From NCBI GenBank assembly GCA_016202875.1, contig JACQNX010000007.1:1-36808 (forward strand): a stretch of 36,808 nt of DNA, read 5' to 3'. The stretch comes from Candidatus Aenigmatarchaeota archaeon. Lineage in GTDB: Archaea; Aenigmatarchaeota; Aenigmatarchaeia; GW2011-AR5. The notes below the pieces were generated by a model. That model was not told where the DNA came from and did not search any database. It was given only the letters and a program-made list of their open reading frames with translations. Shown piece by piece: positions 6,780-36,808 of the stretch. Numbering within the stretch: position 1 is the stretch's first letter; every line of letters begins with the position of its first letter. The position numbers and the translations under genes are program-made.

Positions 6780-8026
6780 AAGGAATGTCAATAAGCGATA
6801 TTATAACCACAGCTCTGCTGCTTGCTATAATAAGCATAATTATCTCTGTTATGCTCTTGGTAAATGTTGTAAATCAATTTTCCTCAGAGCCTGCGGGGTA
6901 TGTAATAGCCTTTGTAAAATACCTTAATGATCCATTTCAGATACTGGAGGCGCTATCACATAAAAATGCAGCAGATAGACAGGTTTTTGAAAAGTCGCTG
7001 GAATCTATTGTAACAGATTCACTGGAAATGGCAAAATCTACTGACCTCCAAACGAGAATAAATGAGTTTATTAAAAATTACAAACTCTCTGTGCTCATTG
7101 TGGAATTAAAAGGGAAAAAAACACTTTTCAAAATATCAAACATAGAGGGTGAAGATATAGAGGCTGTGCGCTGTGGTGATGGTGGCTTTTGTACAGACAA
7201 AGTACAGACAGCAGCAGGAGATTGCCAAGTGGGGAAGGTAAAAATTGATGATGGTGGCGCATGCAAGCCGAACCAGATATGCTGTCAGCTGAATCCGGAA
7301 AAATATGCACAGCAGAAAGAAAGCGAGATATTTAATTCTGGGAACAAACTTAAGGCAGAAAAATTTGATATAGTTTCCTGCGGTCGCAACAATGTAGGCA
7401 TCTGTAATCCGCCTGAATCTAGATTTGATGAGGAAACAGGAAGAATAGACAATTTCCCTTACTGCGGCAATGGTTTTGTGCAAATTGAGGATATAGGAGA
7501 GGCGTGCAAAAAGGCAAACAGTCAAACTCCTATTTGCTGTGCCTTGGCTGAAAGCATTGTATTAGAGAAAGCACGGATCACATCAAGGGCCGAAGTGCCC
7601 TTTCTCTACAAGGGCAAGATTTTGTTCGAGCAAAAAGAATATCAATGCCAGGACAGCAGGACAGAAATCTGCAATGGGGAGTACGCGAGAGGGCTTTGTC
7701 CTGGTCCTGATTATGTAAAGTGTTGCATAACTGATGCAATAAGATGCAAGCGTCCTGATACGAACTATTTCTGTCGCGACAGTGATCATTGCCCTGTAAA
7801 TGGCGGAGACATTATTATAAAGGACAACCAATGTCCTGATCCGGATAAACCTGGACAACAAAGCAATTATGAATGTTGCACAATAGACAAGCCTTACAAT
7901 GAAAATGAAGAGGGCAATAATGCCGGAAAGGTTGCATTCTCTGGCAAGTACGGATCTTGCTATTTAACGGGAATAACGTATACAGATGAGCCTCTTGTCG
8001 GAAAACTGGAGGTTTCAAGCGGATGA
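6767..8026 (+). CDS. Pilin-like N-terminus fused to four Cys-rich modules
   Basis: MHKMKGMSISDIITTALLLAIISIIISVMLL N-terminus; modules ending ICCQL, ICCAL, KCCIT, ECCTI. Confidence 0.7.
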   Translation: MHKMKGMSISDIITTALLLAIISIIISVMLLVNVVNQFSSEPAGYVIAFVKYLNDPFQILEALSHKNAADRQVFEKSLESIVTDSLEMAKSTDLQTRINEFIKNYKLSVLIVELKGKKTLFKISNIEGEDIEAVRCGDGGFCTDKVQTAAGDCQVGKVKIDDGGACKPNQICCQLNPEKYAQQKESEIFNSGNKLKAEKFDIVSCGRNNVGICNPPESRFDEETGRIDNFPYCGNGFVQIEDIGEACKKANSQTPICCALAESIVLEKARITSRAEVPFLYKGKILFEQKEYQCQDSRTEICNGEYARGLCPGPDYVKCCITDAIRCKRPDTNYFCRDSDHCPVNGGDIIIKDNQCPDPDKPGQQSNYECCTIDKPYNENEEGNNAGKVAFSGKYGSCYLTGITYTDEPLVGKLEVSSG

Positions 8027-10620
8027 GAAACAAAAAAGGTGCTGGAACTACAATAGGCGCAGTTCTTATAGTAATCGTGCTATTACTATTTCTCTACGTT
8101 TTTCTTTCTACTGCTCTGACTGCGTCGCAGAAGAAGCTAGAACTCAATCTAAACACAGCAGATTTTTTGAAAGTCAAGAACAGTGTGTCGATAATAAACA
8201 GATCGCTTTCAACAACATGGTTTGTTTCAACAGCGCAGCTGTTGTTCAAAGCAGGTGACGAGTCAGTTGGCTGTGGCTATGATGATTATTTTACACAGGG
8301 CATGGAGATAATAAAGAAAAGCTATTGGTACCAGTATAACGATACTAGCAAATCTAAAGAAACTAACCCTCTGCCATTGAGCGGGAAGAAATATAACATC
8401 GGCACATTTAATGATCTTCGGTATCCGCGCATATGCTACCCAACAGAGCAGCATTTTATTGAATTCTTGAATGAAAAATCTACAGTCTTTAAAGATATTT
8501 TGACAAAACTGCAGGTTAACAACATAGAGTTTGTGCTGGATAAGATTAACATAATTTTTGATGTGAACAGCTTTGAAAATGATAAAATAACTTCTGAGGC
8601 AAGCCAAGAAATAAGGGCAAATCTTGCAAGGAATAATCCTGGCATAATCACAATCACAAAAAATACAAACACTATCTTCACTGCATTCAAAAAAATGCTG
8701 GAGACCGGAAGGAATATTGTTGACAACGCATTTGCCGAGTCTGCCAAAATTGACCCGAGAAAAGATCAGAGGCTAACAAGCCAGCTTCTTTACACGCCAG
8801 CTGATACAGAAACAAAGTATAAAGAGAGGGTGAATAGTCACCTCATAAAAATCTTTTCTGATGCTGTTCCTGTTGACGCAAAAGTCAAGATGCATGTAAA
8901 TTCTGTCAATACAATACAAGTGCGCGCAGGCGATGAGAGCGAGAATGGTTTAGAATTTAGTTTGTCCAAGCAAGGGCTGGTGCTGCATTATGACAACGAA
9001 ATAAGAATAGTGGAAAAATCTGCGCTAGGAAGTATAGCATGCGTCCCTATCAAACAAGAATTTCTTGAGAGAATTCGTATCGAGGTAATGACACGAACAT
9101 GGATCTGGACTGACTTAGATGTCTGGAACAGGGTATCAAGCAATACGATAGCTTACTCAGAAGAGGAAGTAGTAAACCTGATGAGCGCAATGATGCAAAA
9201 GGAAAGCAGCCAGAATGTACGAGAGGTTAGCGATTGTGGGGCTGCTGGACTTATGCAACTCATGCCAGGCACAGCAAAATCTTCTCCGAATGCAATACCT
9301 GTCATATTTGGAGAAGCAAGCTTTACAGACTGCACAGACGAGAATGGAAAAATAAAACAGGAGAGAATTGACTATGCAAAGAGCTTGCGGGCTGCTATAA
9401 ACGGAAAAAGCGACGAGGAAATAAAATCCATTGATGGCAGGCTCGATCCTGTCCAGGGTATAGGAAGAAGTGCAGCTTACATGAACTATCTCCTTTCCCA
9501 ATTTTCTGATTACAGCTCAGACAAAGAAGAGGTGATGAAACTCGCTGTGGCTGCCTACAACACAGGAGAATACGCTGTAAGGGCTGCAATAGACAAGACC
9601 AAGAATATACCTGGATTTAATGTCGAGGAAGTGCAGTATGACCAGATAAAGTGGTTTCTGTCTTCTGAAACAAGGAATCATGTGGAAATCGTCATGCAGC
9701 TATTTGCTTGCTATGAAGGTGGTGGAGTTGCACCAAACCCTATTTATGATTGGCCAACTAATCCTGATACGAGAAGAATTACAAGCTGTTTTGGTAGGAG
9801 AAATGATCCTACTACCGGGGAAGAAGGACAGTTTCATAAGGGCATTGACATAGCCAATGCCAAAGGAACTGCTGTACTTGCTGTGGCTGATGGAACAGCT
9901 ATACAGGTAAATACAGGCTGCACTGAAGGTACTAGAGAATGCGGCGGGGGTTATGGAAATTTCGTAAAAATAGATCACGGCAATTATTTCTCTTTCTATG
10001 CGCATCTAAAAGAAGGTTCAATTGATACTGGTATGGTAAATGTAGGAAACACTGTTACAAAGGGGCAGAAGATAGCTGAGATGGGTAAAACTGGAAAAGC
10101 AACAGGGCCTAATATACATTTTGAAGTCCGTCGGCCTGATGACAGCCGTCTTAACCCCTGCAACTTCATCGATTGCTCTCAATCTACAGGTGATAAATGC
10201 AGAGGTGATATTGATACAACATTACTTGAAGGGCTGTACTACTACCATGACGAACAAAAAAACACATTCACGCCGCGGCCTTTCTCGCTGGAGATGAAGG
10301 TGGAAGATTATTTGAATGTGCTAGACTGTGTGCAGGATGTCCCTCAGGCAGACATATATAAACTATACGTATGGAATTCGCAAAATGATATGGTTTGCTG
10401 CGGCGGGTCGCTGTGGACGTGCAGCGCGAGTCCTGAAGTTCCAAATCTTGGCGATCATGCCCTGCAGGAAGGGGAGAATATAGACAAGAATCGCGGCCAA
10501 CAAGGGGAATTGTGTGCCGAGAAGGTAAATGAGAGGGCGCCAAGAGTAGGCGCTGATGACATAAGAACATTTACTCTTGGCTGTACAGCATCTGGTTTTG
10601 ATGTGGTCGCGGTTTTTTAG
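8023..10620 (+). CDS. Membrane-anchored/pilin-like protein with lytic transglycosylase (SLT) domain and M23-like peptidase domain
   Basis: N-terminus MRNKKGAGTTIGAVLIVIVLLLFLYVFLS. SLT motifs QKESSQ, GAAGLMQLMPGTA, RLDPVQGIGRSAAYM, AVAAYNTGEYAVR. M23 motifs HKGIDIANAKGTAVLAVADG, GGYGNFVKIDHGNYFSFYAHL, GKATGPNIHFEVRRP. Confidence 0.88.
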   Translation: MRNKKGAGTTIGAVLIVIVLLLFLYVFLSTALTASQKKLELNLNTADFLKVKNSVSIINRSLSTTWFVSTAQLLFKAGDESVGCGYDDYFTQGMEIIKKSYWYQYNDTSKSKETNPLPLSGKKYNIGTFNDLRYPRICYPTEQHFIEFLNEKSTVFKDILTKLQVNNIEFVLDKINIIFDVNSFENDKITSEASQEIRANLARNNPGIITITKNTNTIFTAFKKMLETGRNIVDNAFAESAKIDPRKDQRLTSQLLYTPADTETKYKERVNSHLIKIFSDAVPVDAKVKMHVNSVNTIQVRAGDESENGLEFSLSKQGLVLHYDNEIRIVEKSALGSIACVPIKQEFLERIRIEVMTRTWIWTDLDVWNRVSSNTIAYSEEEVVNLMSAMMQKESSQNVREVSDCGAAGLMQLMPGTAKSSPNAIPVIFGEASFTDCTDENGKIKQERIDYAKSLRAAINGKSDEEIKSIDGRLDPVQGIGRSAAYMNYLLSQFSDYSSDKEEVMKLAVAAYNTGEYAVRAAIDKTKNIPGFNVEEVQYDQIKWFLSSETRNHVEIVMQLFACYEGGGVAPNPIYDWPTNPDTRRITSCFGRRNDPTTGEEGQFHKGIDIANAKGTAVLAVADGTAIQVNTGCTEGTRECGGGYGNFVKIDHGNYFSFYAHLKEGSIDTGMVNVGNTVTKGQKIAEMGKTGKATGPNIHFEVRRPDDSRLNPCNFIDCSQSTGDKCRGDIDTTLLEGLYYYHDEQKNTFTPRPFSLEMKVEDYLNVLDCVQDVPQADIYKLYVWNSQNDMVCCGGSLWTCSASPEVPNLGDHALQEGENIDKNRGQQGELCAEKVNERAPRVGADDIRTFTLGCTASGFDVVAVF

Positions 10621-15204: not shown

Positions 15205-16767
15205 TCAGTCATCAGTCATAGGCAGAGTTTTTGCAATTGCCCTGAATTTCTTCGCACGTTCGTAATCTCCTATAGTCTCGGCATATTCGGCTGCTGCTAT
15301 AGCATCCCATTCAAACGCGAAACGGGTGCGCTTTATGCATTCCTCACAAACGCTTTTGAGCAATTCCGAGTCGCCCGATCCTTTTGCAAGATATACAGCC
15401 CAGCTAAACATTCCAGCACCAATATAGTGCTGTGTTCCTCTTTCATAAACAAGCATGGCTCTTCCAGGACTCGTTTTCTTTGCTAATTTGGCTGCGTCTT
15501 CGAATAAGCATACATCTTCACCGAATTTAATTGCTGCTTCAATACCCAACTTTTTCATGACATATTCAATGCCGTCTGCGTATTTGTGGGTGTTTCTGAA
15601 CACCTGAATTGCTCGCTGTATACCAAAATTGTGCTCAGCTAATGCTACAGCTATGTCGATGTTTCCTTTGTTTTCGTGATATCGAATTTCACTTTCATGC
15701 AAATCGTTTATTCTTTCGCGGCTCCATCCTATCCTCTCGGCTAATTTAATAGCACTGCTGTGAAAGCCGCCTTTTTGATAGTATGAGATAGCAACATCAT
15801 ATTTTTCCATTCTTTCTGCAAGTTTGGCAGCTCTAAGAGAGTAGTCGTCAAAACGGTCCAAAGTCCACATCGCTTCTTTATAATACCTATCAGCCTCCAT
15901 CATATTGCCTATTCTTTTGGCCAGCACAGCTGCAACGTCTTTTTTGAATGAAATGTCCAATCCATATTGGAGTATAGCTTCTTCATAACCCTTCTTTTGT
16001 CTATTGATATGTGGCGTTTTAGCAATCAGTTCGTCAGCCTCGTCAAACATTCCAGCTATTTCATATAATTGGACTGCTCGTTCGATATAGCCGTTTTTTA
16101 TAGCCAGTTGCGCAGCCCTAGAAATATTGCCAGCCCTTTCGTAATTTTCAATTGCCTTTTCAACATATCCGCGCTCTTCTGCCAACTGTGCAGCCCTGTC
16201 AAAATTATGCGCAGCTTCATAATTATGGATAGCCTGTGCTGTGTTCCATATATCTTTCTCAGCCAACTGAGCAGCAGCATTTCTCATTTTTGCATGTGAA
16301 TCAATATCAGCAACATCAGCATTCTCATAAAAACGTATTGCACTCGAACGATCTCCATTTTTTATGGCTAGTTCTGCAGCTTCGTGAGCTAATTTAACGG
16401 CATACTTATCTGATTCAAAAAATCCTCCAAGACTATGTGCTTTTGAGTAAATTTTTATTGCACGTTCGTAAAGGTCCATAACTCGCCAAAGTTTCTCCGA
16501 CCTTGAAGCCTGGCGTGCTAAAGTAGCAGCGGCATGTGCGATTTCAGGATAATCTATTGTATAATTTCTATTAACGGGGGACACTTCAAATGCAGATTCG
16601 TACACCCGCATTGCGGCACCAAGGCCGTATAACTCCAGGGTTAATTTAGCTGCTAGATCGAACCTTCCAATTCTTTCGTATTCGGCAATTCTTCTCTCCT
16701 TAGTGAATTCCCTGAATGATTCTATCAAATCCCCAAGCCAGCCACTGCTTTCTTTTTGTTTTCCCAC
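15205..16767 (-). CDS. TPR-like alpha-solenoid repeat protein
   Basis: Repeated units such as AIENYERAGNISRAAQLAIKNGYIERAVQLYEIAGMFDEADELI and AAQLAEERGYVEKAIENYERAG. Confidence 0.75.
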   Translation of the reverse strand: MGKQKESSGWLGDLIESFREFTKERRIAEYERIGRFDLAAKLTLELYGLGAAMRVYESAFEVSPVNRNYTIDYPEIAHAAATLARQASRSEKLWRVMDLYERAIKIYSKAHSLGGFFESDKYAVKLAHEAAELAIKNGDRSSAIRFYENADVADIDSHAKMRNAAAQLAEKDIWNTAQAIHNYEAAHNFDRAAQLAEERGYVEKAIENYERAGNISRAAQLAIKNGYIERAVQLYEIAGMFDEADELIAKTPHINRQKKGYEEAILQYGLDISFKKDVAAVLAKRIGNMMEADRYYKEAMWTLDRFDDYSLRAAKLAERMEKYDVAISYYQKGGFHSSAIKLAERIGWSRERINDLHESEIRYHENKGNIDIAVALAEHNFGIQRAIQVFRNTHKYADGIEYVMKKLGIEAAIKFGEDVCLFEDAAKLAKKTSPGRAMLVYERGTQHYIGAGMFSWAVYLAKGSGDSELLKSVCEECIKRTRFAFEWDAIAAAEYAETIGDYERAKKFRAIAKTLPMTDD

Positions 16768-23402: not shown

Positions 23403-24371
23403 ATGAAGCGTTTCAATAAGATTAGAGGCATCGGAGGACAGGTCCTCAACGAAGAGGATTTTTTTGTCAGGGAAATTCTGACGAGAAAGTTTTCTGCATT
23501 TAAAAGGGGTAAACATGGGGTTGAGAAGATCTCCGGACCTTTTGTTGTCTTGAAGCTCACAAAACGTGGAATGACAACAGAAGAAGCAATAAAAAAGGTC
23601 GCTAGCATTTATGGGATTAAAAAAGACATAGGCTTTGCAGGATTGAAGGACAAGTTCGCAGTTACTGAACAATACATCACAATCAAAAACTTCTCTGGAA
23701 ATAATTTCTGTAACAAAAATATGTCAGTGGAAAAAGTGAGGGTATCGTCCCATCCGATTGGTGCCGGCGATCTGGAAGGCAACAGGTTTGAAATAACATT
23801 GCACGACTGCACGCATATTAAAAACCTTGATGCGCTTCTGATCTCGCTGAAGACTGAGGGGATGCCTAACTATTTTGGCGAGCAGAGGTTTGGGTCGCAT
23901 GGTGACAATCATGTGATAGGCAGATATCTTGTAAAAAGAATGTACACAGACGCTCTACAAATAATCAACAGGCACGAAAGAAAAGTTGACAACATCAAAA
24001 AAATAGAAAAAAGGAGGCTGAAATTTTTTGTCAATGCCTACCAGTCGTTTATATTCAATAAAATGCTTGACATGTATATAGCCAGACATAGAAAGCCATA
24101 CTACAAAGATGTTCCTGTTGTCGGTAGCAAAACAAAAATTTATCATGACATCTTCTCAAGTATTATAAAAGGTATAATGCAAAAAGAACACATAACTACA
24201 AGAAATTTTCGCATTGACGACCTCAAGCTCTCATGCGATGGCAGTAGCAGACAGGCTTTTGTAAAGCTAAAAATAGAACGCATTGATATTGCAGGAAATA
24301 CCGTAAGACTCACATTCACTCTGCCTCCAGGCAGCTACGCTACTGTAATGTTAAGGGAGTTGACAGGATGA
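23403..24371 (+). CDS. truD: tRNA pseudouridine synthase D
   Basis: GIKKDIGFAGLKDKFAVTEQYITIKN, MPNYFGEQRFGSHGDNHVIGRYLVK, FFVNAYQSFIFNKML. Confidence 0.92.
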   Translation: MKRFNKIRGIGGQVLNEEDFFVREILTRKFSAFKRGKHGVEKISGPFVVLKLTKRGMTTEEAIKKVASIYGIKKDIGFAGLKDKFAVTEQYITIKNFSGNNFCNKNMSVEKVRVSSHPIGAGDLEGNRFEITLHDCTHIKNLDALLISLKTEGMPNYFGEQRFGSHGDNHVIGRYLVKRMYTDALQIINRHERKVDNIKKIEKRRLKFFVNAYQSFIFNKMLDMYIARHRKPYYKDVPVVGSKTKIYHDIFSSIIKGIMQKEHITTRNFRIDDLKLSCDGSSRQAFVKLKIERIDIAGNTVRLTFTLPPGSYATVMLRELTG

Positions 24372-25717
24372 AAAAGAAAAACAATAGTGAAAAAATTGTG
24401 CTTGCCTTACTATTTGTTTTTCTTTTAGCTATCAGATTATATCCTGCTTATACCAATGAATACCTCAAAGGCAGCGATTCATGGTATCACCTAGAACGCG
24501 CAAGATCTATGCTTGATGGAGATTTCTTTTATGACAGCAGAAATGCTGGCGGAGCTGTAAGTGCCTACACCCCTTTTTTTCATCTGATCATTATTCCTGT
24601 GCACTTTTTTCCTGATCCAGTGGCAGCTGCGAAATTTTTCGGGCCGCTTCTGGGGTTTCTTGGAGCTGTGGCTTTCTTCATGTTTGCAAGAAAAATTATG
24701 GGGTATAAAGAATCGCTGGTTGCGACATTTGTCTTTGGAACAGCTGTGGAAATAGTCAACACTGCGATGTTTTTGGCTCCTGTGAATCTTGCTTTCATAT
24801 TTATGTTTCTTGCGCTGTTTTTTGCTCTTGATGACGAAAAAAGTGGCGGAAAGTTTTATCTGTCCACTCTATTTGCATCTCTTCTGGCTTTGATGCATCC
24901 GCTGACTTTCATTATGTTTATTATTTTTGCACTTGTTTTTCTGGATCATAAGGTGCTGAAATTTATTTCTATTCCGATCACTGTTTTTGTTTTGTGGATC
25001 GTTTTCTCGGCAGCGATAGTGGCACAGACCTCTATTATCTTGAGCAATCCGCTGCCTCTGGAAAGATATTTCTTTGGGGTGAGTGCACTGGCTTTTGCTT
25101 TTGCTGTCATAGGAATCAGAAAGGCACAGCCCAAGCTCAGTTTGCTCTTTGCGCTCTTGACATCTTATTCATTGCTCGTTGTCTTTTATCCGGATCGTGT
25201 CTTTACATATTCTGTCATAGCAGTGGCTTTGCTGGCGGGTATGGGGTTTGCGGATCTTTATCACAAAATATCACAGCACTATCGGTTCATCTTAATGATC
25301 TTTCTGCTTATATCTGCAATTCCTGTTTTTGATTACGGCTATGCGAAGACAGAAATGAGAGGCGAAGACAAATCAGTACTGGATTGGATAAAGAACAATA
25401 CAGAACAAGATGCAACAATTGCGGCAAGCTGGCAGGTGTCAGGGGCATGGATGCCTTATGCTGCTGAAAGGAAGAATATTCTTGGGGCATTCCAGGAATC
25501 TGTTGCTGATTATCAGGAAAGACGGCGAGACCTTGCCGTGGTCTTCTCGTCCGGCGATAAAGAAAAAATAATAGAAACCATGCGGAAATACAATGCAACT
25601 TACATCTTTGTCAACAAAATGGAAGACGATGCCCTGTACAAGGGCAGCATAAAGAGATTTTCTGACATGTTTACGGAGGTGGATGGAAATGACTATGCGC
25701 ACCTCTATAAAATATGA
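24368..25717 (+). CDS. STT3/AglB-like polytopic glycosyltransferase, divergent
   Basis: LKGSDSWYHLERARSMLDGDFFYD N-terminal loop, polytopic; IAASWQVSGAWMPYAAERKN at the position expected for the WWDYG region. ATG overlaps truD stop. Confidence 0.7.
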   Translation: MKKKNNSEKIVLALLFVFLLAIRLYPAYTNEYLKGSDSWYHLERARSMLDGDFFYDSRNAGGAVSAYTPFFHLIIIPVHFFPDPVAAAKFFGPLLGFLGAVAFFMFARKIMGYKESLVATFVFGTAVEIVNTAMFLAPVNLAFIFMFLALFFALDDEKSGGKFYLSTLFASLLALMHPLTFIMFIIFALVFLDHKVLKFISIPITVFVLWIVFSAAIVAQTSIILSNPLPLERYFFGVSALAFAFAVIGIRKAQPKLSLLFALLTSYSLLVVFYPDRVFTYSVIAVALLAGMGFADLYHKISQHYRFILMIFLLISAIPVFDYGYAKTEMRGEDKSVLDWIKNNTEQDATIAASWQVSGAWMPYAAERKNILGAFQESVADYQERRRDLAVVFSSGDKEKIIETMRKYNATYIFVNKMEDDALYKGSIKRFSDMFTEVDGNDYAHLYKI

Positions 25718-27119
25718 TAAAAAAGTCATAAGTTCCGGCATAAACAAATACGAGACATTGGCAGTTTTCCTGATAGCACTGGCAATATTTTCTCTGCCAA
25801 CTATCTTGCGTTGGACATATTTTGACAATCCAAGCATAATAGGGTTTCCTACGTATCTGCACCAGAGACAGGCATTGGATTTGGATGGCTATGATGAGTT
25901 GAGTTTTGGCGGGCGAGCGTATACATATCCACCGCTCTTCAGCTATGCTATTGCTGGCTTCTCCTTACTGATGCCGATACATATCGGAGGCATGCTGCTT
26001 GTTGCGATCATGGGAGCAGTTTCTGCGGCATTTTTTTATCTTATTGTCCGTGAGCACATCAGCAGGAAGTATGCATTGCTGTCAAGCATACTACTGATTC
26101 TAGTGCCGGGCACAATATACTTCAATGCGCATCTCTCAAGCAGGGCGCCGCCGTTTGCGCTGGGCATGGCTGCTATTTATTTTTTGCTGAGAAAATATAG
26201 TGCCCGAAAGAATCTATCACCATGGTTAGCACACAAAAACATCATTATAGCCGGGATTTTTTTGGGGGTAGCAGCATTGTTTCATCCAGAAACTGCGTTC
26301 TTCTTTGGTCTTGTAGGATTATTCAGAGCAGTGAAGGATAGAAGGATATGTATTTCGCTGCTGCTTGCTGTTGTTATTGCATCTGCTTACTATATTTCTT
26401 TTATTGCAACACACGGCTTTCCTGAATACAGTGCGCTGCATGAAGAATACAGGTCAAGACAGTACAGCTTGGAATCGACACGGGCAGAGACATTCTTTTT
26501 TGAGCTAGCTCCCAATGGCTACCTTAATTTTGCAATAGCAGGGCTCGCTGTTTTTGGGATTGCGAAGAAGAGGCATATGTTTCTTTTTTACTGGCTGGTA
26601 CTTGCAATAGCTTTTGCACTTATCGCAGAGAGGTTTGCTGTGTACCTTGCTGTGCCTGTTGTTTTGCTTGCTCTGTACGCATTGATCATGATGGAAAAGA
26701 AAACATGGTTCAAGACTGCGCTGACATTGGTACTCATTTATGCAATAATGCTGGCTTCTGTAAAAATCTTTTATTTCGCGCAATTTTACCCGACAAAAGA
26801 ACAATACGGCACAATGATTTGGATCAAGCAGAATACGCCGGAAAATGCTACAATTCTCAGCGATTGGCAGTGGGGGCACTGGATCGCTGGTATTGCGGAG
26901 CGCAGAAATTTTGTGGACGGCTATGCAGAGTATGCACCGAATGTCACAGCTAGGATAAATGAACTTGAACAGTTTTACAAGACATGCCAGATTCCTGAAG
27001 GCTACAACATCTCTTACATATATATGGAAAAATGGTTTGCAGCTAGCAAGAACATTACGTGTATGGACAAGTTCCAGCTTGTTCACGAGAACAGCGGCTT
27101 TGCTGTGTATAAAGTGTGA
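25683..27119 (+). CDS. STT3/AglB-like polytopic glycosyltransferase, divergent paralogue
   Basis: Polytopic; ENATILSDWQWGHWIAGIAERRNFVDGYAEYAPN; start may be ATG 25689. Confidence 0.7.
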   Translation: MEMTMRTSIKYDKKVISSGINKYETLAVFLIALAIFSLPTILRWTYFDNPSIIGFPTYLHQRQALDLDGYDELSFGGRAYTYPPLFSYAIAGFSLLMPIHIGGMLLVAIMGAVSAAFFYLIVREHISRKYALLSSILLILVPGTIYFNAHLSSRAPPFALGMAAIYFLLRKYSARKNLSPWLAHKNIIIAGIFLGVAALFHPETAFFFGLVGLFRAVKDRRICISLLLAVVIASAYYISFIATHGFPEYSALHEEYRSRQYSLESTRAETFFFELAPNGYLNFAIAGLAVFGIAKKRHMFLFYWLVLAIAFALIAERFAVYLAVPVVLLALYALIMMEKKTWFKTALTLVLIYAIMLASVKIFYFAQFYPTKEQYGTMIWIKQNTPENATILSDWQWGHWIAGIAERRNFVDGYAEYAPNVTARINELEQFYKTCQIPEGYNISYIYMEKWFAASKNITCMDKFQLVHENSGFAVYKV

Positions 27120-27130
27120 GCATGTTTTGG

Positions 27131-28393
27131 TTATTCAACAACATTTCCTTCGTTCTTGTTCCATTTATTTGTCACGCGCTTGCTGGAAGAACTTTCTGCA
27201 ACAAGCACGACTGCCTGGACAGCAAGCAGAAGCCAGTAATACGGGAATATGAAGAGGTAGGCAACAAGGGTTCGCCATGTGAAGCCGAATCTAGCCATGT
27301 TCAGGAGCAGGTAAAGGAAAGAGAACAGCCACGAGAGAATAATCGCTGACATCAATGCTGTCAGTGCATATGCACCAGTCAAAATATTCACAACAACATC
27401 CGCTATGCCGTAAATGGTGAACCACTTTGCCAGCAATTCTACGGATGCCAAGGAAAGCGGCTGCGAGATAAAATTTCCTACAAACCAGTACACTGCAAAT
27501 GGAATGTACATAAGGGCAAAAGCATACCAGAAGAGATGCATGGGAAATGCATAGTTTCCTATAAAATTCAGGCTGCGCGAGAAAAGAATGTCTGAATGTT
27601 TTTTGGCAACCTGCATAGAGCCGCGCCCCCATCTTATTCTCTGTTTCACAAGGCCGGTCAAACTAGAAGGAGCGGCTGTATGGATCACAGCGCGGGACAT
27701 CACAGCATGGAAACCTGCTTTTCGCAGGCGGATTGTGACATCAATGTCTTCGGTAAGCGTGTCATTGCTAAATCCATGGATTTTTTCCAGCGCAGATTTC
27801 TTGAATGCTGCAAAGCCCGGCGTGACATACGTGGAATTGAGCTTGCTACAGATATGGCGCCAGCCAGAAGAAACAATATAATCTATATCCTGAAACCATG
27901 TGAACAGGCCATTGTACTTCACTCTTATTGCGCCTGAAGATGCTCCTGTTTTCGGATCAGCAAGTGGCTGGACAAGTGCCAAGAGGGATTGTTTTTCTAT
28001 GGATGAATCTGCATCCATGCAAACAACTGTTTCAAACCGTGCTTTTTCAAGTCCGTAATTAAGCGCTTTGGCTTTTCCAGAATGGGGAATTGAGAAGAGC
28101 CTCACGGCTTTGTTTTTTCTGGAGAGTGCTTTTACAATTTCAGCTGTTTCATCAGAAGAGCCATCGTCAATGACGAGAACTTCTTTCTTGCTTGGATAAT
28201 CTGCATTGAGGATGCTCTGGATTGTTGCTGCTATGAAACGTGCTTCATTGTGCGCTGGTATGATTATAGAGACTGGTGGCGTGTACGTACTTTTTCCCAT
28301 TCTTCTTGCTGGCAGCAAAAATATTGCAATAGCTACTATATGCACAGCTGCGAGCGCTGCGAACAGCACTGTTAGGATTAATTCTAAGGACAT
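27131..28393 (-). CDS. Processive-type glycosyltransferase family 2 (membrane)
   Basis: SIIIPAHNEARFIAATI, VLVIDDGSSDETAEIV, CMDADSSIE, TEDIDVTIRL, KQRIRW (QxxRW), C-terminal TMs. Confidence 0.9.
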   Translation of the reverse strand: MSLELILTVLFAALAAVHIVAIAIFLLPARRMGKSTYTPPVSIIIPAHNEARFIAATIQSILNADYPSKKEVLVIDDGSSDETAEIVKALSRKNKAVRLFSIPHSGKAKALNYGLEKARFETVVCMDADSSIEKQSLLALVQPLADPKTGASSGAIRVKYNGLFTWFQDIDYIVSSGWRHICSKLNSTYVTPGFAAFKKSALEKIHGFSNDTLTEDIDVTIRLRKAGFHAVMSRAVIHTAAPSSLTGLVKQRIRWGRGSMQVAKKHSDILFSRSLNFIGNYAFPMHLFWYAFALMYIPFAVYWFVGNFISQPLSLASVELLAKWFTIYGIADVVVNILTGAYALTALMSAIILSWLFSFLYLLLNMARFGFTWRTLVAYLFIFPYYWLLLAVQAVVLVAESSSSKRVTNKWNKNEGNVVE

Positions 28394-28448: not shown

Positions 28449-29753
28449 TTAACTCTTTTTCATACTTGCATAGGGAAGCAATTGGGGCAATGAAAAATTT
28501 TCATTGCCTGTTTTCTGAATCATAGTCCAGTGCATGGGCTGGCTCCTCAGCACTTTTATAATCCCATGGCATACGCTCAGGGAGACAAGGATTCCTATTG
28601 TGAGGGCAGAGAAAAATACAATTGGGACAGAGTGCAATCTCCTTTCTTTTCCCAGTGCCACAATACCGGCAAATGTGAAGCCGGATGCAAGGATGAAATT
28701 TATGAGCACATCTGAAACAAGGCGCGGGATATTTATGTCAGCAGGATTACCTGTCATGAATGAGAGGGCGCCAAAAAACATGAATGCGACCAGGAAAAAG
28801 GATGAGATATAGCCCAGCATTGTGGCGGACAGCAAGGCGCGCTGCAGCAGAGAGAACTTTCCAAATAATATTGATTTTTTATGACGCAGAAACGCGCTCA
28901 TATTACCATAAGCCCATCTGCGCTGCTGCGTGCGCAGGCCGCGCACATTGTAAGGCACTTCTCCCAGGACCTGAAGATCAGGAAGATAGCATGTCTTGTA
29001 GCCCTGCGTAAGGGCGCGCACAGAAAATTCCACATCTTCTGTAACACTGCCTTCTAGCCAGCTGCCCAGCCTGACAAGGACGTCTTTTCTCACAGCCTCT
29101 GCTGAGCCGAACAACAGCGAGACTCCAGCACGGTTGTTTAACTTTGCGAGGAGATTGTGATATACCATGAGCACTGTGCTTGCGAATTTTGAGGTAGGGC
29201 TCTGCTGCATGTTCATGTAAGCCCATTTGGCCTGGACGCATGCTATCTGTGTGTCTGCAAAAGGCTGGATTATGCGCCTGAGAAAATCTTTTGGAGGGAC
29301 AAAGTCTGAATCAAACACTACTATGATCTCGCCTTTTGCATAACGCAGCATGTTGTTAAGGTTCCCTGCCTTGAAGCCTGCATTTGAGCCGCGCCTTATA
29401 ACTTTTATCCTTCCTCTGTATTGGCGCGCAAATGCATCTATCATTTTTGAAACTTCGGGGTCAGAGCTGTCGTCGCCTATAAGGATTTCATATTTGTTCT
29501 TTGGGTAGTCCATCTGCAGGCATGCTTCTGCACACCGCAGCGCCACAGGCTCGTTGAACGTTGGGATTTGTACTGTAATTTTTGGAAATTTCTTCATCTG
29601 TTTGTTTTTGTAGCTGCGTGCCTTATGGAAAAAGCCGCTTATGCCCAGCAGATAAAAGAATATGGAAAATATAGCAACAGGTATGACAAGCCCGTGAAAT
29701 ATCTGCGTTGATGCATCGTGAACAAATAGCTTGAGCAGCTCCAGTTCTAGCAT
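28449..29753 (-). CDS. Cellulose synthase-like glycosyltransferase family 2 (membrane)
   Basis: ITVQIPTFNEPVALRCAEACLQMDYP, EILIGDDSSD, VVFDSDFVPP, TEDVEFSVRAL, QQRRW, C-terminal TMs. Confidence 0.9.
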   Translation of the reverse strand: MLELELLKLFVHDASTQIFHGLVIPVAIFSIFFYLLGISGFFHKARSYKNKQMKKFPKITVQIPTFNEPVALRCAEACLQMDYPKNKYEILIGDDSSDPEVSKMIDAFARQYRGRIKVIRRGSNAGFKAGNLNNMLRYAKGEIIVVFDSDFVPPKDFLRRIIQPFADTQIACVQAKWAYMNMQQSPTSKFASTVLMVYHNLLAKLNNRAGVSLLFGSAEAVRKDVLVRLGSWLEGSVTEDVEFSVRALTQGYKTCYLPDLQVLGEVPYNVRGLRTQQRRWAYGNMSAFLRHKKSILFGKFSLLQRALLSATMLGYISSFFLVAFMFFGALSFMTGNPADINIPRLVSDVLINFILASGFTFAGIVALGKERRLHSVPIVFFSALTIGILVSLSVCHGIIKVLRSQPMHWTMIQKTGNENFSLPQLLPYASMKKS

Positions 29754-29826: not shown

Positions 29827-30330
29827 CTAGATTGGCGAGAGCAGGAAGTTCTGTGAAATGAATGTCAGCAGTGCCAAGGTTACTGCAAGGGCAATGGTTA
29901 TGGTCACAGCCTGTTTCTGTGTTTTATTCATGCCCACCTCAATGCCCACAGCAACAAACACAAGTGACCATATAATCCCTATTAGTTTTACAAAGCCATG
30001 CGGAATCCAGCCAAGCACAAGGGCTGGTGTTGCGGCATAGGTGACAATAAAGAATGCCTTCTTAAAGGACTCTTTGTCAAGTGTCCTGAAAACCATCAAT
30101 GCAAGCAAGGCTGAAGTTATAAAGACGCCTCCTAGTATGGACAAAAAAAATACTGCAATACTCTCAACTATGCCCATAACCAGCTTGACTGTTGTCCAGC
30201 CAGCAGCTATGGTCAGTGCACTTAATGCAGAAAATATCATTCCCAATACAGCAACTTGTGTCAAATCCTGGATAAAATGCGCTTTGTTTTTCTTGAAAAA
30301 GAGGTCAGAGTCTTTTAGTAGTATCTTCAT
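29827..30330 (-). CDS. Yip1-domain-like polytopic membrane protein
   Basis: 167 aa with several TMs; layout LLGGVFITSALLALMVF...KAFFIVTYAATPALVLGWIP typical of YIP1-like proteins. Confidence 0.6.
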   Translation of the reverse strand: MKILLKDSDLFFKKNKAHFIQDLTQVAVLGMIFSALSALTIAAGWTTVKLVMGIVESIAVFFLSILGGVFITSALLALMVFRTLDKESFKKAFFIVTYAATPALVLGWIPHGFVKLIGIIWSLVFVAVGIEVGMNKTQKQAVTITIALAVTLALLTFISQNFLLSPI

Positions 30331-30905
30331 GAACTCACTCCTTTTATGTCACTGATGCTGTTGATATCAAAAACAATGAGCACCAGCTTATCAGCAGCCA
30401 ACGACAAATTTTTCTGGCTTGTGCCCTGCAAGAGCACGGTCTTGTCCTGCAGCGTGATGGAAGTCTCTGTGGCGCCTGTTGCAGGACCCTTGAGCCAGAG
30501 TGTAAGGCCTTTCAGTGCTGGCTCTGGGATGGGCTCGCTTCTGAAATTGTACCATTGAGTCCCATTGTCGGAAATGAAGTAGTAGACATCAATAGTTGTG
30601 CCTTTTCCCTGGGACGCGAAATAGAAAGGAATTTTTGCATTGATGTCTATGAGCACTATGCGGAACATGCCGTTGTCAAGCTCGTCTGTGCCATTGAAGA
30701 CTATGTTAAGATGGCGCTCATTCTGGAAGAGGGTAAAGATCTCGGGCTCGCTCTCCGCTTTCACGAGAATGGATTGCCTGATGTCGTTGTTGAATGTGTA
30801 TATCTGCGTGTGGCCTGGGATGGTGATTTCTGTTATGGGCAGGTCCTGCTGCACGCAGCCTGCGACAAGAACTACAGCAATGAGTGCAAAAAATACATGT
30901 CTCAT
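30327..30905 (-). CDS. Predicted lipoprotein-like secreted protein
   Basis: MRHVFFALIAVVLVAGCVQQ, lipobox VAGC. Confidence 0.7.
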   Translation of the reverse strand: MRHVFFALIAVVLVAGCVQQDLPITEITIPGHTQIYTFNNDIRQSILVKAESEPEIFTLFQNERHLNIVFNGTDELDNGMFRIVLIDINAKIPFYFASQGKGTTIDVYYFISDNGTQWYNFRSEPIPEPALKGLTLWLKGPATGATETSITLQDKTVLLQGTSQKNLSLAADKLVLIVFDINSISDIKGVSS

Positions 30906-31811: not shown

Positions 31812-32945
31812 CTACTGTGTTCTGTAATATGAATCTATTAGTCCTATGAGGTCAAAAAAGTTTATTTTGCCCTGATAATACTGGTCAATCTTGTTTATGA
31901 TGTCAAAGAATGTCACCTTCTTTGAGCCTGTGACTGCGTATGCAGAGAAGCTTGTAGTAGTGGACTCAAAGATATAATTTGTTCCGTCAAACTTCAGCTG
32001 CTGCGTAGGCAATGCTACCCACTGCTTCCCTACGAGCTTTTTCAGCGTTGTTGTCTCAGGGGCAATGCCATTTGCAGTGAACCACGTTTTCGGGACCTTG
32101 AACTGGATTTTTGCCTCTGCAATCTTATTGTTGGTGAAGGATGGGACAATTTCAATATACTTGTACACAGAGCCTTCTCCGGATGAAATAGCTACTGTGG
32201 CATCTGCGGGCTTTGTAACTTCTTTTACTGTTATTGTACCGGACAAAATTGTGTCTGCTGCTTTGACTTCTATGTTTGCAACAGGTGTTTGCGTGAAGAC
32301 AAATGACCCAGACTCTCCTGTCTGCAGATTTGAATCAGATGAGCCCGAGCTCTGGACATTGCCGCCAACAGCGCCTGCTCCAGAAGAACCGCCTCCACCG
32401 CCGCCTGTAGCAGTAGATGTACAAGTTCCGATAGAGCCTGCGACATTACAATCCTCGCTTGAGCCGGTACAGGCAGAGTTGCAGCAGTAGCCATCAGAGC
32501 AGAAACCTGATGTGCAGCCGGCTGCGGAGAAGCAGGCAACGCCATTATTGGACGTGTTCATGGTGAGGTTGAATGGGTGCCAGCCAATGCCCCAGGGCTG
32601 GGCAGATGCATTTGTGCCGTTCATTGCTATCACAGTCATGCTGTTCACAAAGAAGGAAACGTTATCGCCGGGATTGCCCGGAACATTAACGATGTAGTAG
32701 CCGGGGCCTTTGTCGCCAATATTTCCTACAGTGAAATTAGTCACATTGGTCACATTGTCGCTGTTCACGCGTGTCTGGACAACTGTGCCATTGGCTGCGA
32801 GAGTGCCGTTGATATAAACGTAGCCGACATACGTAGAACAGCAGCTCTGGGCAGTCACGGCAGACGCAAACATTATTGCCAGCAGGAAAGGCAAAAGTAC
32901 TGCATAAAACATTTTGGATTGCATTTGGTATGAATGTTTACTCAT
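31812..32945 (-). CDS. Secreted PGF-pre-PGF-like domain protein with Cys-rich module and duplicated C-terminal motif
   Basis: Start likely M at 32945 (MSKHSYQMQSKMFYAVLLPFLLAIMFASAVTAQS); ADATVAISSGEGSVYKYIEIVPSFTNNKIAEAKIQFKVPKTW...FESTTTSFSAYAVTG; CTSGFCSDGYCCNSAC. Confidence 0.75.
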   Translation of the reverse strand: MSKHSYQMQSKMFYAVLLPFLLAIMFASAVTAQSCCSTYVGYVYINGTLAANGTVVQTRVNSDNVTNVTNFTVGNIGDKGPGYYIVNVPGNPGDNVSFFVNSMTVIAMNGTNASAQPWGIGWHPFNLTMNTSNNGVACFSAAGCTSGFCSDGYCCNSACTGSSEDCNVAGSIGTCTSTATGGGGGGSSGAGAVGGNVQSSGSSDSNLQTGESGSFVFTQTPVANIEVKAADTILSGTITVKEVTKPADATVAISSGEGSVYKYIEIVPSFTNNKIAEAKIQFKVPKTWFTANGIAPETTTLKKLVGKQWVALPTQQLKFDGTNYIFESTTTSFSAYAVTGSKKVTFFDIINKIDQYYQGKINFFDLIGLIDSYYRTQ

Positions 32946-33006: not shown

Positions 33007-36000
33007 TCACAGCTCAAACCTGTCGGCAACTGTCATATTTATCCAGTATGGCTTGTCATTAGTGTTATTAATGTACTTCAGGTCGCTGCCTGCCCAGTCT
33101 GTGACGTTGAAGGACTTCCAGCCGCTGCTTGTGCCGTCTGTGTTGTAGTAGACAAGGCTGTAGTTTCCATTAAGGCTCAGGTTCAGGATGTACGTGATGT
33201 TCCAGTTCTGCGTGTTCGAGCTGTTGTAGCCCATGGTTGTCAGCACGCCTGTCTGCGGTATGAAAAGCGTGTTCCAGCCCTTGTTCAGGCTCTGCGTGTA
33301 GTTGAAGTTGCTTGTTGTGTTTATGGAGAACCATATTACAGAGGAGCTGGTCATGTTATTTCCTGAGGAGTCAGAGCAGCGCACATATCTTGCATGCACT
33401 CCATCCGCCAGGCTTGTCAATGTGAAGTTGTGAGTTAATGAAGAGCCTGTCATTGTGTTGCTCATGTTTACATAGGCGGTGTCTGAAGTATCGAACTTGC
33501 AGGTCGCTGCCTCGCTTGTGTTGACCAGCAGTGCTACTGATGTAGAGGATTGTGCAGAGCCGGCTGAAGGACCAACAGCCAATACTACAGGCGCTGTCAG
33601 GTCTATTGTAACAAAGGCGGCTGTTGCTCCTGTCGTATTTTCATTACCCGCTGTATCTATGGATGTCACTGTATAATTCCATGTTCCGTCTGTAGGAACA
33701 TCGTTGGAGTACTTAGACACATTACCAACTGTCGCCACCAGCTGCGAGGATGAGCTGACTGCGCTATTCAATGCACGGTAAATGTTATAGCTGCTTGCGT
33801 CAGCTGAAGTTGATTTGGTCCATGTCAAGTTGACTGTTCTTTGCCCAGGCACCTGAACTGCTGCCAATCCTGAAGGCGCATTAGGCGCTGTTGAATCTGC
33901 GATAGTAATCGTAAAGCTTATCACTGCTGATGTTGTCATGTTGTTTGCCGAGCTGTCAGCACACCTCACGTAGTATGCACTTGTTCCATTTGCAAGGTTT
34001 GTTACATTGTGATTATGAGTTGTGGAGCTTGTGTTTCCGAATGTTGTTGAGAGATTTACATAAGCCCTGTCTGTTGTATCGAACTTGCATGTGGCTGTCT
34101 CACTTGTGTTGGCGACAAGTTGCGCAAAATTGACAGTTAATGTTCCACTTGGTCCGCTTGCCAGCACCACAGGCGCTGTTGTATCTATCGTTACAGCAGA
34201 TGCTGTTGCTGCAGAGCCCTCGTTGTTTGAGGTATCCACAGCAGTAACAGTGTAATTCCATGTGCCGTCTGCTGGCACTGTATCAGAGTACTTGGTTACA
34301 TTGCCCAGTGATGCTATAAGCGGCGATGTTGTGGTTACAGCTGAACCATTCGCTCTGTAGACCCTGTACTGGACTGCATCGCTTGAACCGGACCCAGACC
34401 ATGTAAGATTAACTTGCTGAGTCCCAGCTACCTGCACAGCAGTGAGATTGCCAGGAGCGTTTGGTGCGGTGATGTCGCTTGTGATATTAGTGGTAAATGT
34501 AATTACAGATGATGTTGTCATGGCATTGCCTGCTGTGTCCTGGCATCTGACCTGGTAGGTGTAGGTTGTCGAATTCACGAGGCCTGAAACAGTCGCATTG
34601 TGCGCTGTGGCAGCGCCTGTCATGGTGTTGGCCATTGTATAGTATGACTGGTCTGTTGTGTCATAGCGGCAGGTGGCATTCTCGTTTGTTGTGACATTAA
34701 GGCTCACGGATGCTGCAGTAATTGTGCCATTAGGTGATGAATTCACAACTATAGGTACTGTCTGGTCAATTGTGAAGCCGACTGATGAGACGTTGGTATT
34801 GTTGCCTGTGTCGTTGGAGAAGACCTTCAGGGTATTATTTCCAACGCCTGCTGTGAGTGTCTGGTTGCCGCAGTCTGTGATAGATGAGTTTGTGCCATTC
34901 AACTCGCGCACGCACTGCAGAGGGGTGCCTGTTGTGTCAGAGGATGTGAAGTTCAGCGTTATGTTTGTGTAATTGTAAGATGTGTTAAGAGGCGATGTGA
35001 TCGTGACAACTGGGCCCTGGTTGTCGTAGGTGAATCCAATTGACGTCACGCCTGTGTTGTTCAGCGTGTCATTTGCAAATACCTTGACTGTGTTCGCTCC
35101 AACAGCAGCAAGGAATGTTATGTTGCCGCAGCTTGAGAGAGAGAAGTTCACTGTGTTGTTCTGGAACACGCATGTGACTGTTGCATTGTCTGGTGCGACA
35201 AAGTTCAGGGACTGGTTCTGGACATTGGTCGTGATGTTTGTCGGGGAGTTTATTGTGACTACAGGCGCGATCTGATCAACTGTGAATGTGATTGCGGATG
35301 AGACGCCTGTGTTGTTTGTGCTGTCGTTTGCGAAGACTTTGACCGTGTGCGCGCCTATTGCAAGCGATGTCATTGTTGTGTTGGCGCATGAAGCGATCGA
35401 AGTGTTGGTGCCGTCGAGCTGGCGCACGCATGTATCTGTCGCGTTGTCTGTGACAGTGAATATTAGTTGTACAGAGGAATTGACTACTGTAGAGTTGGTA
35501 GGTGCGACCAGGGTGACTGTAGGCGCGATCTGGTCTACTGTGAACGAGATGGAAGAAACATTTGTATTGTTGCCTGTGTCGTTGGAGAAGACCTTGACGG
35601 TGTGGGCGCCTGTTGCGAGCCCTGACAAAGTTTGGTTGGCGCAGCTTGCTATTGTCGTGTTCGTACCGTCGAGCTCGCGGACGCACTGGATAGGCGTGCC
35701 TGTGGTGTCAGAGGACGTGTACGTCAATGCAACGGAGGTGGTATTGATTGTCGTGTTTGTAGGCGATGAGATCGTGACAACTGGCCCCTGGATGTCGTAG
35801 GTGAATGAGATTGACGACACATTCGTGTTGTTGCCTGTGTCGTTGGAGAAGACCTTGACTGTGTTTGCTCCCACTGCGGCGAGGAATGTTATATTTGCGC
35901 AGCTAGCGATGCTGAAGTTCACGCTGTTGTTCTGGACCACGCACTGCAGCGGCGTGCCTGTGGTGTCTGATGAAGTGTAAGTCAGGCTCTGGTTCTGGAC

Positions 36001-36808
36001 GTTTGTCGTGACGTTCGTCGGCGCAGTTATTGCTATCACCGGACCCTGGTTGTCGTAGGTGAATCCAATTGACGTCACGCCTGTATTATTCAGTGTGTCG
36101 TTGGCGAAGACTTTCACTGTGTTCGCGCCAACAGCAGCAAGGAATGTTATGTTGCCGCAGCTTGAGAGGGAGAAGTTCACTGTATTGTTCTGGACAACGC
36201 AAGTTACTGTGCCGTTGTCAGGCGCGACGAAGTTCAGGGACTGGTTCTGCACATTTGTGGTGATGTTTGTCGGGGAGTTTATTGTCACGACTGGAGCGAT
36301 CTGGTCGACTGTGAATGTGATCGTAGAGGATGCGTTCGTGTTGTTGCCTGTGTCATTGGAGAATATCTTGATTGTGTGGGCGCCTATCGCAAGGCCTGTC
36401 ATTGTCGTGTTGGCGCAGCTTGCTATGCTCGTGTTCGTGCCGTCAAGCTGGCGCACGCACTGCAGAGCCGTGCCTGTCGTGTCCGAAGACGTGAATATCA
36501 GCTCGACTGAGGAGTTCACGACTGTGGAGTTTGTAGGAGCTATCAATGTTACCACTGGCCCCTGGATGTCGTAGGTGAATGATTTCTAGTAGCTGCCTGT
36601 TTTTTTCAGCGTATCATTTGCGAAGACTTTCACTGTATTCACTCCCACTGCTGCGAGGAATGTTATGTTGCTGCAGCTTGAGAGCGAGAAGTTCACTGTG
36701 TTGTTCTGGACAACGCAAGTCACTGTGCTGTTGTCAGGCGCGACGAAGTTCAGGGACTGGTTCTGCACATTTGTGGTGATGTTTGTCGGGGAGTTTATTG
36801 TCACGACT
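33007..36808 (-). CDS. Giant repeat surface protein/adhesin (Ig-like and FN3-like repeats); frame continues to window edge but has an in-frame TAG at 36586-36588
   Basis: Downstream part 33007-36555 (1182 aa) and upstream part 36586-36804 are in the same frame and share the same repeat; modules PNAPGNLTAVQVAGTQQVNLTWSGSGSSDAVQYRVYRANGS resemble FN3. Confidence 0.8.
34763..36808 (-). repeat. Tandem intragenic repeats, about 250-263 bp per unit, about eight units including a partial one
   Basis: Recurring GTGAAT...-type boundary near 34763, 35023, 35273, 35531, 35793, 36050, 36302, 36565, with near-identical stretches between units. Confidence 0.85.

Follow-up and report, generated by a model that had tools for sequence, protein, structure and literature searches.

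The window, 36,808 bp in length, spans the whole of contig C61 in the draft genome of an archaeon, an assembly of 815 kb in 85 contigs that is 77.7% complete. At one end of it lies the gene for a large surface protein, followed on the same strand by a cassette of smaller genes, g2 to g7 (Table 1). Because the window is the whole contig, the large gene leaves it and the N-terminus of the protein is absent. Read from position 36807, the frame comprises 1267 codons with a single internal TAG; as this triplet interrupts the outermost repeat, the uninterrupted frame has 1192 codons (1182 amino acids counted from the first GTG). The TAG sits within a 15-nt block unlike the two closest repeat copies, and toward the contig end the repeat again matches another copy almost perfectly. 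It is therefore probably a faulty consensus at an assembly break, and might otherwise be a genuine nonsense mutation. Stop-codon reassignment is not supported, because the relatives' genes are intact under the standard code and an in-frame TAA in the oligosaccharyltransferase gene aglB marks a real gene boundary. A search for the missing N-terminus elsewhere in the genome turned up neither another contig with near-identical repeats nor a match to the N-terminal portion of the corresponding protein in the relative G012.

Table 1. Positions of the giant surface protein gene, its modules and the downstream cassette in the window
Feature	Position	Strand	Remark
Giant surface protein, coding frame (C-terminal portion)	33007..36807	minus	5' end lost at contig end
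Eight tandem Ig-like units (Big_3_3-like)	34753..36807	minus	7-11 sequons and one Cys pair per unit
In-frame TAG in the outermost repeat, by the contig end	36586..36588	minus	probable assembly artefact
Three Cys-pair modules alternating with two FN3-like modules	33313..34752	minus	boundaries approximate
C-terminal GWN domain	33010..33312	minus	conserved in family f1 giants; invariant sequon NNTN
g2, secreted PGF-pre-PGF protein, no membrane helix, two copies of a 17-residue FFDxIxxIDxYY motif at its end	31812..32945	minus	TIGR04213, E 5e-25
g3, signal peptide, Ig-like beta-sandwich ectodomain, Pro-rich linker, C-terminal membrane helix	31126..31803	minus	proposed anchor
g4, small lipoprotein-like protein	30327..30905	minus	kept near the cluster in six relatives
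g5, Yip1-domain membrane protein	29827..30330	minus	also in the G017 cluster
g6, GT2 glycosyltransferase	28449..29753	minus	same position in G017 and G018 (67-72% identity)
g7, GT2 glycosyltransferase	27131..28393	minus	same position in G018 (53% identity)

The earlier note on this DNA had read the protein as a giant with tandem Ig-like units in its N-terminal part and FN3-like modules alternating with Cys-pair modules in its C-terminal part, and this anatomy is borne out. There are eight Ig-like units of 84-88 residues each, the outermost containing the stop, followed by Cys-pair, FN3, Cys-pair, FN3 and Cys-pair modules and then by a separate domain of about 100 residues. The repeat unit quoted in that note is found exactly at 36291..36040 on the minus strand, with eight N-{P}-S/T sites and two cysteines. 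In a Pfam scan, Big_3_3 scores 31.7 bits (cut-off 27), fn3 falls just under its cut-off, and no recognised ligand-binding domain appears; the same holds for three relatives of full length. The 20 cysteines of the open frame are distributed exactly two per Ig or Cys-pair module, with none elsewhere, a pattern that would fit extracellular disulfides. The repeats are under purifying selection: two intact copies differ at 26 codons synonymously and at only 2 non-synonymously, and one of these two is the free middle position of a sequon (DNGT/DNAT).

As for the size, three relatives encode intact giants of 2196-2782 residues, with other repeats and the same C-terminal domain, so the word giant holds for the family, whereas the gene of the window itself is incomplete at the contig end and carries the in-frame TAG. 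The giants of four relatives start with a signal peptide, the part that is missing here with the N-terminus, and possess no membrane helix beyond it. Their middle repeats are entirely different between genomes. In G007, a fourth relative beside the three with intact proteins, the giant gene (L078:6128-14998) is broken into three frames of 1786, 566 and 492 amino acids, by decay or by assembly errors. A search of 59 genomes for the C-terminal domain, for which structure prediction gave a pLDDT of 33.6, returned seven loci, distributed over six relatives that belong to the same family, and one marginal hit outside it. Besides its own genome, the domain is thus present in 6 of the 18 relatives examined from this family, several of which are incomplete. 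The giant is therefore no layer protein common to the whole family, and any comparison with S-layers is to be taken as "works like" rather than "is".

Over its 1182 residues the protein contains 91 N-x-S/T sites, or one every 13 residues, as opposed to 39.9 +/- 4.9 in 2000 composition-preserving shuffles, none of which reached 91. When asparagine and serine or threonine were counted at other spacings of 0-6 residues in both directions, they occurred 29-49 times, whereas N-x-[ST] occurs 91 times with 41 expected. Since only the exact sequon spacing is enriched, richness in Asn and Thr is not the cause; composition is ruled out by these spacing and mirror controls. The excess extends over the Ig part (56 sites, 22.2 expected), the FN3/Cys part (27 and 13.3) and the C-terminal domain (8 and 3.6). 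Each of the eight Ig units, taken singly, has 2.4-2.9 times the expected number, so the signal is not made by repeat copying alone.

The claim of very dense sequons also stood up against the proteome background, the giant being the densest of 204 frames in 217 kb of genome sampled. In the same sample, with classes assigned by a simple hydropathy rule and no trained predictor, soluble proteins have 0.34 sequons per 100 residues, 0.85 times the expected number, and proteins with an N-terminal hydrophobic stretch, taken as secreted, reach about 1.5 times expectation. The relatives' surface proteins show this enrichment too (about 2-3 times expectation, with the mirror pattern at about 1), so sequon density is a habit of the lineage, the window giant ranking among the densest. 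Two genomes in which no AglB was detected (G031 and G038) were compared as well; G031, whose AglB has possibly escaped detection, does encode sequon-enriched surface proteins. Another sequon-dense secreted protein of the window's own genome (contig C40, L045:3439-6897; 5.81 sequons per 100 residues) contains an MG2-like domain as found in alpha-2-macroglobulins. Taken together, the specific enrichment, the contrast between secreted and soluble proteins, the presence of AglB, the relatives' signal peptides and the Cys pairs give good support at the sequence level to the proposal of a heavily glycosylated cell-surface protein, and we regard the giant as a well-supported N-glycoprotein with predicted sites.

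The oligosaccharyltransferase that would modify these sites is encoded outside the window. A PF02516 (AglB/STT3) match with an E-value of 3e-23 was identified on contig C32 (L004:1405-3153), and the gene consists of two adjacent frames, the first ending in TAA and the next starting with ATG in direct succession; the second frame continues on contig C13 (6244-7095). The supposed link of the giant to a nearby "STT3-like" gene is accordingly weak, as the true AglB lies on C32 and C13 and the candidate in the window is ruled out as the oligosaccharyltransferase. The window does contain two adjacent GT-C membrane glycosyltransferase genes (24368-25717 and 25683-27119, plus strand), only remotely related to STT3/Dpy19; the second shows weak matches to AglB ORF2 (1.8e-6) and to TIGR04154 (1e-6). 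The link to GT2 glycosyltransferases fared better, since G018 has both GT2 genes, and G017 the first one, at the same place downstream of the cluster.

The same division of AglB into two genes was detected in at least 15 further genomes of the class (L151, L153-L156, L158-L162, L164-L165, L168-L170), most of which belong to the same taxonomic order; the gene is unexpectedly split in the greater part of that order. ORF1 (390-470 amino acids) matches PF02516 and has the GDPDxD and RF motifs, and ORF2 (320-470 amino acids) has the WWDxG-like motif TYWDPG. When the halves from eight genomes were compared with the AglB of G030, a single chain of 816 residues, they aligned to it in order, ORF1 within residues 22-440 and ORF2 within residues 365-813. 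In two genomes, G007 and G013, the halves are separated by a frame of about 220 codons, which is evidence against a frameshift artefact. No earlier report of a split AglB was found in a literature search that did not cover the 2020 AglB survey (Nikolayev et al.).

Immediately downstream of the giant, g2 is a clear member of the PGF-pre-PGF proteins (88.3 bits against TIGR04213, cut-off 28) but lacks both the PGF-CTERM signal and the membrane helix, which other PGF-pre-PGF proteins checked in the same genome keep. The only archaeosortase A candidate in this 77.7%-complete genome was a sub-threshold hit (22.2 bits, cut-off 75). g2 comes next after the giant at all seven related loci with the C-terminal domain. 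In five genomes (the window's own, G012, G014, G017 and G018) it carries the duplicated tail, has no C-terminal membrane helix and is followed by g3; in three others (G003, G007 and G010) it ends in a Cys-rich linker and a membrane helix, and g3 is absent. These eight genomes are few and share ancestry. Across 30 genomes no confident copy of the tail was found elsewhere, the one marginal hit being in G024 (E 0.08). The linker and helix of the G012 g3 align to the g2 ends of G003, G007 and G010 (2e-26, 2e-23 and 4e-19, respectively). The simplest reading of these alignments is that the anchor has moved between g2 and g3 and that the tail may bridge the two proteins where they are separate.

The g3 ectodomain was modelled as an Ig-like beta-sandwich (pLDDT 91.9); among the fold matches listed, its nearest solved relatives are YcnI, integrin domains and the CLIPPER domain of a fibrillar adhesin. 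A secreted protein with a duplicated short tail and a membrane-anchored beta-sandwich are reminiscent of the cohesin-dockerin system. Family and fold searches do not support that identity: Pfam gives neither a cohesin nor a dockerin match, the tail lacks calcium-loop residues and no cohesin is among the 50 fold matches listed. Elsewhere in the window, an 865-residue protein (8023-10620, plus strand) combines an M23 peptidase (5.8e-25) with an SLT lytic transglycosylase (4.2e-14), murein-cleaving domains in an archaeon, and a 520-residue protein (15205-16767, minus strand) gives weak matches to Clathrin/SNAP/TPR-like alpha-solenoids, all under the Pfam cut-offs.

The S-layer of Sulfolobales is built from SlaA, a large N-glycosylated protein without an anchor of its own, and SlaB, a smaller membrane-anchored partner. 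As known from sequence, the locus described here likewise pairs an anchorless, large, sequon-rich giant with a smaller membrane-anchored partner. It differs in being a three-gene cassette with a tail-bearing intermediate and in its Ig/FN3 modules; no sequence relation to SlaA/SlaB became apparent. The density of sites differs too: in the Sulfolobus acidocaldarius S-layer protein one residue per 30-40 is modified, a figure described as unequalled in Archaea (PMC4287180), and the giant, at one site per 13, would have two to three times that density, its sites being predicted and those of S. acidocaldarius largely confirmed.

We propose, at about even chances, that the giant serves as the principal subunit of a layer or sheath on the surface of a small-genome archaeon, which by its genome size is probably a member of the DPANN, and that it has no anchor of its own and is held by partners. 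The protein would be exported by means of a signal peptide, as seen in the relatives, would fold into a rod whose Ig-like and FN3-like modules are disulfide-bridged, and would be N-glycosylated by AglB at many of its dense sequons outside the membrane; these three steps rest on sequence features and on established knowledge of archaeal N-glycosylation. Gene order and co-occurrence suggest that g2 captures the C-terminal domain of the giant and that g3, in the membrane, binds g2 through the duplicated tail; in genomes without g3, g2 would supply the membrane helix itself. Occupancy of the sites, binding of the C-terminal domain to g2 and of the tail to g3, and the function as a layer are what we infer.

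Judged by the gene cluster, a role as an S-layer-like coat or a sheath is no less fitting than that of the adhesin which the earlier note had put forward, whose argument does not separate the two. A host-contact adhesin would be a long glycosylated stalk that meets a host or partner archaeon with a binding tip located either in the missing N-terminus or in the C-terminal domain, and we consider it possible, at perhaps one chance in three. The Ig/FN3 stalk, the rapid turnover of the middle repeats between relatives, the small genome, which suggests symbiosis, and the resemblance of g3 to the fibrillar adhesin CLIPPER domain, among other Ig-like folds, would all suit it. It also has a precedent in the SPEARE proteins of Nanohaloarchaeota, very long, mostly extracellular, repeat-rich surface proteins of symbiotic small-genome archaea (DPANN) for which a role in host contact has been proposed (PMC6642349). 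The giant shares these general traits, but the Pfam scan found none of the laminin-G, protease or restriction-enzyme domains of SPEARE in it; it also lacks a C-terminal membrane helix, its anchor apparently coming from its neighbours, and the absence of a recognised ligand-binding domain extends to the three full-length relatives. By analogy with SlaA/SlaB we favour a layer over a contact stalk, a distinction that sequence cannot make.

The truncated gene might instead encode the C-terminal half of a secreted protease whose long Ig tail would be glycosylated. Contig C49 encodes an S8 subtilase (L082:2-2002) that has a signal peptide and Ig repeats rich in sequons, and this contig stops inside repeats that are 35% identical to those of the giant and as rich in sequons (6.15 per 100 residues). 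Among the relatives, too, the closest Ig repeats belong to S8 subtilases of the same order and are equally sequon-rich. In those proteins, however, the S8 domain comes first, several of them finish in their own membrane helix, and there is neither a GWN domain nor a g2 or g3 neighbour, whereas the S8 domain is missing from three full-length giants that share the C-terminal domain of the window protein and are likewise followed by g2. At the DNA level, the contig end matches C49 only over a stretch of 27 bp. We therefore consider a joined protease improbable; the protein of the window would rather be a member of the giant family that has acquired protease-type Ig repeats. Least probable is that the gene is nothing special, either a repeat protein whose sequons follow from a composition of 11.8% Asn and 29.4% Ser plus Thr or, given the TAG, a decaying pseudogene. 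The compositional part is refuted by the enrichment of N-x-S/T as the only spacing, and against decay stand the selection on the repeat copies, the position of the TAG inside an anomalous block at the contig end and the presence of AglB in the genome.

Extending the surface-layer reading beyond this genome, we tentatively suggest, at rather less than even chances, that a hyper-N-glycosylated giant wraps the cells of the order, that its anchor is split interchangeably between g2 and g3, and that the catalytic chain of AglB is permanently divided into two separately encoded subunits. The split AglB would make the assembly of oligosaccharyltransferase subunits directly testable. If the predicted sites are occupied, the giant would carry up to one glycan per 13 residues, more than the cited archaeal record (PMC4287180), and the surface would be largely sugar, in uncultivated archaea about whose envelopes hardly anything is known; the cassette provides concrete candidate partners for holding an outer coat on such cells.
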